From Coriobacteriia bacterium (GTDB lineage Bacteria > Actinomycetota > Coriobacteriia > Anaerosomatales > SLCP01), in NCBI GenBank assembly GCA_030603745.1, contig JAUVXE010000001.1, positions 1-64,000 of the forward strand: a stretch of 64,000 nt of DNA, written 5' to 3'. Position numbers and translations under genes: made by a program. Numbering within the stretch: position 1 is the stretch's first letter; every line of letters begins with the position of its first letter. The notes under the pieces were generated by a model. That model was given only the letters and a program-made list of their open reading frames with translations, did not search any database and was not told the DNA's origin. Of this stretch, positions 986 through 2,151 are shown piece after piece.

Positions 986-1057
986 CCGTGTAACCCGGCT
1001 GCGACGCGGTGTCCACACGCACAGTCTCGTTGTCAGAGAAGGCAACCCGGCACTTGC

Positions 1058-1091
1058 GTTATACGCAGTATAGGTGTAATGTGCGTATAAC
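1058..1091. promoter_or_regulatory. Inverted repeat upstream of the nucleotidyltransferase gene
   Basis: Perfect 9-base arms GTTATACGC (1058-1066) and GCGTATAAC (1083-1091) are separated by 16 bases and lie just before the ribosome site of the next gene. The region between the arms is AT-rich (TATAGG, TGTAAT) and could hold a -10 element, with TTGCGT at 1054 as a possible -35. The position suits an operator; an RNA hairpin near the start is the alternative. Confidence 0.5.
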
Positions 1092-1107
1092 TCCGAAGGA
1101 GGTCGGG

Positions 1108-2151
1108 ATGGATCGGCAGCCGCTCGAAGTTCAGACGATCTACGCTGAGCTCCTAGAGCAGCTCGCGGCGTATGAGGCCTCACGTGCCATCGGACATGCG
1201 CCTGGCTCCTTTGTCACCAAGACGATCAAGGGCCGGGAGTACTACTACTTTCAGCACATGGGGCCCGGTGGCACGAAGCGTCAAACGTATCTGGGTCGGC
1301 GTGATGAATCGCTCGACAACCTCGCCGAGCGGTTCGCCGAAGGCAGGGCCAATGTAGCTGACGATCTTCACTCTATCGAGCGTTTGGCCGCCTTGCTTCG
1401 CGTAGGCGGTGCGATGCTGACGGATGTTCCGTCATCGCGTGTCCTCCGCACGCTCGCGGACGCGGGGGTGTTTCACTCCGGCGGGGTCCTGGTCGGGACG
1501 CATGCGTTCGTTGTGCTCGGCAACCTACTCGGGGTGCGGTGGGACAGTTCTCTGCGCACCCACGACGTCGACATAGCTGTCGACCGGAGTCTCGACATCG
1601 CTGTACCGGGTGTCGCTGTGGACGTTCCGTCGGCTCTCGAGAGCCTCGAGATGGGGTTCCTCCCGGTGCCGGGACTCGAGCCGGACACTCCCACTACATC
1701 CTTCAAGGTGCGCGGCCAGTCGCTCCGCGTGGATATCCTTACACCTTCTACAGGATCCCACTCCCAACCGGTGAGTCTGCCGAGGTTTGCCACTTCGGCT
1801 CAGCCCATCAGGTTCCTTGACTATCTGATCGAATCATCGGTGCCAGCGGCCGTCGTCAACGGTGGTGTCGTTGCGGTCAACGTCCCGGATCCTGCACGGT
1901 TCGCTCTTCACAAACTGATCGTCGCCGAGGAGCGACCGGTTGCCATGAGCGCGAAGCGCGCCAAGGATCTCTCGCAGTCGGCGCAACTGCTCGAGGTACT
2001 CTTGCAGGACCGTCCAGGCGATCTGGGGCTGGCCTGGGAGGCCATCGTCGCTCAGGGCGAGTCATGGACCAGGCGAGTCAAGAGATCGTTGCCTGAACTC
2101 GATCGGCATTCCGCCGATGTCGCCCGGTGGGTCGGCGGTGTTCTGGGGTAG
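1108..2151 (+). CDS. GSU2403-family nucleotidyltransferase-fold protein
   Basis: A 347-residue protein. The start at ATG 1108 is fixed by AAGGAGGT at 1096-1103. The N-terminal ~100 residues contain a basic/aromatic segment (TKTIKGREYYYFQHMGPGGTKRQTYLG, residues 38-62). The centre has the nucleotidyltransferase core: GGVLVGTHAFVVLG (125-138), the metal-binding pair D153/D155 in THDVDIAVD, and a third acidic residue D209 in LRVDIL. A C-terminal segment with conserved lysines (ALHKLIVAEER, KRAKDL) recalls AbiEii/MenT-type NTases. The catalytic triad looks intact, so it probably transfers nucleotides to a protein, RNA or small molecule; the substrate is unknown. Genes of this family are often accessory and have been linked to toxin-antitoxin-like loci. 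No antitoxin partner is evident here, only the palindrome in front. Confidence 0.7.
   Translation: MDRQPLEVQTIYAELLEQLAAYEASRAIGHAPGSFVTKTIKGREYYYFQHMGPGGTKRQTYLGRRDESLDNLAERFAEGRANVADDLHSIERLAALLRVGGAMLTDVPSSRVLRTLADAGVFHSGGVLVGTHAFVVLGNLLGVRWDSSLRTHDVDIAVDRSLDIAVPGVAVDVPSALESLEMGFLPVPGLEPDTPTTSFKVRGQSLRVDILTPSTGSHSQPVSLPRFATSAQPIRFLDYLIESSVPAAVVNGGVVAVNVPDPARFALHKLIVAEERPVAMSAKRAKDLSQSAQLLEVLLQDRPGDLGLAWEAIVAQGESWTRRVKRSLPELDRHSADVARWVGGVLG

Follow-up and report, generated by a model that had tools for sequence, protein, structure and literature searches.

A solitary GSU2403-type nucleotidyltransferase gene whose promoter-overlapping palindrome suggests a one-gene enzyme-repressor

A nucleotidyltransferase gene with its own palindrome

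We analysed a 64-kb stretch of DNA (the window) that carries, near its left end, a solitary nucleotidyltransferase gene directly preceded by a perfect inverted repeat. The features of the locus are as follows.

1054..1059, + strand: predicted −35 element TTGCGT, overlapping the left arm of the palindrome
1058..1067, + strand: left arm GTTATACGCA of the putative operator palindrome, a perfect 10-bp inverted repeat
1077..1082, + strand: predicted −10 element TAATGT, 17 nt past the −35 element and extending into the right arm at its inner edge
1082..1091, + strand: right arm TGCGTATAAC of the same perfect 10-bp inverted repeat
1095..1101, + strand: Shine–Dalgarno sequence AAGGAGG, with the ATG 6 nt downstream
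1108..2151, + strand: solitary NTP_transf_8 (GSU2403-type) nucleotidyltransferase gene, 347 aa, ATG at 1108, stop codon ending at 2151
1108..1407, + strand: N-terminal domain, residues 1–100, modelled as helix 6–24, strands 33–40, 43–51 and 57–64, and helix 67–100
1435..2043, + strand: nucleotidyltransferase domain, with G130-T131, D153-x-D155, D209, H268-K269 and K286-D287

The protein matches PF12281 (NTP_transf_8) over residues 110–312 (E = 3.1e-54, 184.7 bits, above the gathering score of 26.3 bits) and is a member of this already known family, in agreement with an earlier note on this DNA, which had read it as a GSU2403-type nucleotidyltransferase and numbered its catalytic residues correctly. 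The active site has G130 and T131, the aspartates D153 and D155, and D209 as the third acidic residue; the three acidic positions are retained in 63 of 67 full-length relatives. By these residues the domain appears catalytically intact and, by analogy with the superfamily, its substrate may be the end of a tRNA or other RNA, or a protein. Two copies that are otherwise intact and keep their operator (L011 and L017, genomes G003 and G063) have one catalytic aspartate swapped (D155G and D153H), and in L265/L266 two catalytic positions are replaced; these aspartate-substituted copies are possibly inactivated enzymes. NCBIfam, PADLOC, PHROGs and PDB sequence searches with the window protein gave nothing usable (in PADLOC, no match), and no homologues were found in phages or on viral contigs. 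The best PDB match of a full-length AlphaFold2 model was 5uvd, a nucleotidyltransferase-like antigen (E = 0.004), with a weak match to AbiEi (6y8q).

The start codon at 1108 was set by alignment of homologues, and the ribosome site ahead of it is as close to perfect as first described. A GTG at 1009 was rejected as the start: it would make the promoter, operator and Shine–Dalgarno sequence part of the open reading frame, and the alignment with homologues begins at 1108.

The palindrome, GTTATACGCA-N14-TGCGTATAAC, occupies 1058–1091 and has the outer ends GTT...AAC. It is the repeat previously given nine-base arms and a 16-base spacer, extended here by one pair to 10-bp arms 14 nt apart. It occurs once in the window, where shuffles led us to expect none, and once in the whole genome. 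Among aligned operators TTGnGT stands just left of the arm and is followed, after N17, by TAtnnT at the inner right arm; TTG precedes the left arm in 89% of 18 Coriobacteriia operators, and TAtnnT is conserved among 31 aligned operators. From this conservation we infer that a sigma-70 promoter sits inside the palindrome, which would make the palindrome an operator overlapping the gene's own promoter. In the window copy the hexamers match the consensus only weakly, and a promoter scan called none there.

The position of the palindrome directly upstream of the start codon (1–3 nt away in some Elusimicrobia) would also suit a hairpin in the 5′ untranslated RNA. However, a conserved −10 element overlapping the inner right arm places the expected transcription start at or near the end of that arm, and the left arm would therefore not be transcribed. 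In several clades, moreover, the arms lie 18–24 nt apart with variable spacers, and we regard an RNA hairpin as highly improbable.

The same palindrome precedes close homologues

We collected homologues from the genomes of relatives and by a genome-wide search. In a clade of 27 full-length genes from Coriobacteriia, Deltaproteobacteria and Elusimicrobia (about 47–77% identity to the window protein), TTATACG-N18-CGTATAA precedes every gene, always with N18 and 33–61 nt ahead of the conserved LYAE codon. Across 162 genomes (149 relatives and 13 distant), 32 of 35 exact sites stand before a PF12281 gene or its remnant. Searching the relatives with the 32-bp pattern gave 23 sites in 22 genomes, against a single genome for a reversed control pattern; 22 of these sites precede the gene, counting the gene starts cut by a contig end in G005 and G039 and the remnant in G012, and the remaining site is an orphan. 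The distant genomes hold 12 sites, of which 10 stand at the gene; the remaining two are a low-complexity site in G154 and, in Lamprobacter (G157), an orphan. Exact sites away from the gene number three (G008, the low-complexity site in G154, and G157).

Several individual loci deserve description. The orphan operator in G008, GTTATACGCAGCTTCGGCAAACGGTGCGTATAAC (L032:4300-4331, G008:C179), lies at a break in a YD-repeat gene, beside a CopG/BrnA-like ORF; the operator of the nucleotidyltransferase gene itself follows 1.5 kb downstream. In Lamprobacter (L083 at about 1500; L047:5900-6060) the operator is decayed and the nucleotidyltransferase gene has an early stop codon; an intact orphan operator lies some 17 kb from this decayed gene. 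At L027 (G012:C25) the sequence immediately after the operator encodes just the C-terminal third of the protein; the N-terminal domain and active site are gone, through either an internal deletion or an assembly fault. In four Elusimicrobia loci (L042, L044, L045 and L046) the right arm ends 1–3 nt before the ATG, with no space for a Shine–Dalgarno sequence, and the transcripts are probably leaderless. A palindrome scan of viral contigs gave at least 120 matches, with 6 having extended arms among the matches listed; since the five inspected fall in coding or unrelated sites, we took the viral matches as chance rather than genuine operators.

Full-length relatives carry clade-specific palindromes

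More distant full-length relatives, in Pseudomonadota, Desulfobacterota and on plasmids, have clade-specific palindromes of other sequence in the same place. Examples from other subclades, all before the gene, are GTTATACTGTTTTT, GTTATGACCAT, GTTATAAGAAAT, TTCAACAATC, TTATCTATA-N22, ATTATCCCT-N24 and ATTTCGGTAT; half-sites are exemplified by GTTATACGCAG in Coriobacteriia and GTTATACTGTTT in Rhizobium. A strong inverted repeat (score of at least 9 within 110 bp before the start) precedes 88% of 67 full-length genes, leaving about 12% with none in that interval, compared with 10% of 261 control starts, taken from other ORFs in the window and in sampled homologue and plasmid loci. The excess over controls persisted without the Coriobacteriia-type set (MWU p = 7e-19). 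Only 6% of 18 short PF12281 genes, which have no N-terminal domain, showed a strong repeat. Sites also match genes in number: a genome with two genes (G204) has exactly two subclade-specific sites, and the TTATCTATA type occurs as one site in each of three genomes.

The shorter PF12281 form (about 230–290 aa; L022–L031 and L267–L287) lacks both the N-terminal domain and the palindromes, and in a phylum-wide sample the Actinomycetota matches outside the window's order are of this form. A plasmid copy in Methylobacterium nodulans (L103:4800-4905) has at least three tandem half-sites of the GTGACCATAAC type before the gene, which suggests several dimers. PF12281 proteins were found in 44 of 299 sampled Pseudomonadota genomes, and 439 records of alphaproteobacterial plasmids (rhizobial and related) hold homologues, annotated as 'GSU2403 family nucleotidyltransferase fold protein'. 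The distribution is patchy, with the gene present in 29 of the 149 relatives.

Operator sequence covaries with the N-terminal domain

AlphaFold2 predicts a helix, a three-stranded sheet and a long helix (alpha-beta3-alpha) for the N-terminal domain, with a moderate pLDDT of 72 when the domain is modelled alone. Residues 32–66 include seven basic and two acidic residues. The window copy of the domain had no match in Pfam, and Foldseek comparison of the model with PDB and BFVD gave no confident match, including none to a known DNA-binding fold. Weak fold matches such as PC4 were not used as evidence.

Among 46 diverse full-length proteins, similarity of the operator arms correlated with identity of residues 1–105 (r = 0.73). 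In partial Mantel tests the arms remained associated with the N-terminal domain when catalytic identity was held fixed (r = 0.38, p = 0.0005), whereas with N-terminal identity fixed there was no significant association with the catalytic domain (0.03, p = 0.35); the same pattern was seen in a subset without most Coriobacteriia-type genes. These tests are support rather than proof that operator specificity follows the N-terminal and not the catalytic domain, because the identities of the two domains are themselves correlated (r = 0.90). We propose the N-terminal domain as a putative DNA-binding and autoregulatory domain on the grounds of covariation and phyletic association, not of fold. The suggestion in the earlier note that this domain doubles as a regulator thereby gains strong, if indirect, support: the operator is tied to the full-length form across phyla, is absent from relatives without the domain and covaries with it in sequence.

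That the palindrome accompanies the gene across phyla, and that orphan copies occur (in the rearranged YD-repeat region of L032 near 4300, and in G157), could also be explained if the palindrome were a site of recombination or insertion (attC/dif-like, or the end of a transposon) that spreads the gene. Yet each gene has only a single site, which lies on its promoter side, and the spacing to the −10 element is constant within the clade. The attC consensus has outer core sites oriented AAC...GTT, opposite to the GTT..AAC found here, and the arms differ between subclades, tracking the N-terminal domain. We consider a recombination site very unlikely.

We think it probable, on this comparative evidence, that the gene encodes a one-gene enzyme-repressor under negative autoregulation through its own operator, with no partner protein. 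Expression would be driven by the promoter embedded, with its −35 and −10 elements, in the palindrome; a dimer would bind the two half-sites through the alpha-beta3-alpha domain, and the bound dimer would block RNA polymerase, keeping the level of its own protein low. Binding as a dimer, and repression rather than activation, are the parts of this scheme that we infer.

Genomic setting, partners and mode of action

The gene lies in DNA of lower GC content, as first noted: 0.595 over positions 1–1000 and 0.615 over 1001–2000 (0.60–0.62 over the first 2 kb), compared with about 0.71 in the rest of the window. The start of an IS3-type orfA lies on the minus strand at 60–1, and contig C10 opens with the same 126 bases as positions 2–127 of the window; the window's left edge is therefore a contig break that falls within an IS copy. 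The earlier note had counted two insertion-sequence ends to the left of the gene; the one at the window start was confirmed and the second was not.

No neighbour family recurred in 29 homologous loci, the outcome of the neighbourhood survey that had been called for. There was no antitoxin gene beside the window gene or the surveyed homologues, and none annotated beside the plasmid homologues, consistent with the original observation at this locus, and HEPN was absent from the 25 commonest neighbour families, leaving no sign of MNT/HEPN adjacency. The ORF at 467–856, raised before as a small membrane protein and possible partner, exists and is adjacent on the same strand; it has no family match and was not found beside homologues. 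A functional partnership with it or another neighbour, which recurs in none of the 29 loci and would be interrupted by the nucleotidyltransferase gene's own promoter and operator, is almost certainly not the explanation. The further idea of a single-gene system holds in the sense of a solo, apparently self-regulated gene.

The 136 neighbours of homologues included AbiEii (4), PIN (4), ParE (2), DUF1016 (2), DUF4143 (2) and integrase (2), none of which was among the most frequent families listed for 117 control-region proteins from the same genomes; the comparison is rough and rests on those most frequent families. The commonest control families were metabolic and signalling, with some restriction and other defence genes too. 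Neighbourhoods rich in toxin–antitoxin and defence genes would suit a single-gene, toxin-like system, a claim added to that of the enzyme-repressor, in which the derepressed nucleotidyltransferase inhibits growth, for example through a MenT-like modification of tRNA ends, with the N-terminal domain serving both as autorepressor and as intramolecular restraint. The gene's character points the same way: it is solo, patchy and accessory, sits in a low-GC patch beside an IS, is common on alphaproteobacterial plasmids (the 439 records), and has decayed and active-site-changed copies. Against this, there is no PF08843/DUF1814 match, no PADLOC match and no antitoxin gene, many non-toxins likewise sit in islands, and some defence genes occur in the control regions too. 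We therefore regard toxicity, and with it the dual role of the N-terminal domain, as possible but doubtful. Were the enzyme toxic, the gene would be a toxin–antitoxin-like unit made of a single gene. The fuller proposal, of a widespread, plasmid-borne one-gene toxin–antitoxin-like system with toxin and autorepressor or restraint in a single chain, a new beta-sheet DNA-binding class and an operator co-evolving across phyla, seems to us rather unlikely.

A non-toxin, homeostatic role is a reasonable possibility, though not one we would expect: as a trigger enzyme or metabolic sensor of the NadR or BirA kind, the protein would set repression by binding or converting a nucleotide. The joining of an enzyme with a proposed DNA-binding domain in one chain, and the conservation of catalytic residues together with the operator, fit such a role; the patchy occurrence (29 of 149 relatives) and the lack of a recurring metabolic neighbour do not.

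Comparison with known systems

In the openly accessible literature we found no mention or functional study of NTP_transf_8 or PF12281, and no description of an N-terminal domain or operator for the family in the literature searched. The sole mention of GSU2403 of Geobacter sulfurreducens was as a 'hypothetical protein' raised in an ihf-mutant RNA-seq comparison (PMC7962754), and self-regulation of the family therefore appears to be undescribed. The Pfam model of this family, to which NCBI gives the name 'GSU2403 family nucleotidyltransferase fold protein', spans only residues 110–312 of the window protein. The covariation of operator and domain suggests a first testable function for the family's unannotated N-terminal domain, and the family offers matched protein–DNA pairs with at least five half-site types for direct tests of binding and specificity.

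In AbiEi/AbiEii, a nucleotidyltransferase is negatively autoregulated through inverted repeats that overlap the promoter (PMC7319586). The window gene shares with AbiE a nucleotidyltransferase and an inverted repeat predicted to overlap the promoter, and some AbiEii/AbiEi genes neighbour its homologues. However, AbiE requires a pair of genes, one for the wHTH antitoxin-repressor AbiEi and another for the toxin AbiEii, whereas the window protein is one chain with a different N-terminal fold and no PF08843 match. MenT toxins transfer pyrimidines to tRNA 3′ ends (PMC10435456), and the likeness here is in superfamily fold and catalytic-aspartate logic. MenT (MenAT) is a DUF1814 protein with a cognate antitoxin gene; the window protein has neither feature, and for that reason we did not assign it to AbiEii/DUF1814. 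The resemblance to AbiEii and MenT noted from the start thus stands as a weak analogy, with no PF08843 match at E ≤ 1 and no antitoxin gene beside it. The window protein may nevertheless work similarly to systems of the AbiE/MenT type.

In BirA and NadR a single polypeptide holds both the enzyme and the DNA-binding domain; these proteins repress transcription, regulating biotin and NAD genes, respectively, in a regulon. Their likeness to the system proposed here is functional, by description: they serve a regulon, whereas each copy of this gene seemingly has a site of its own.
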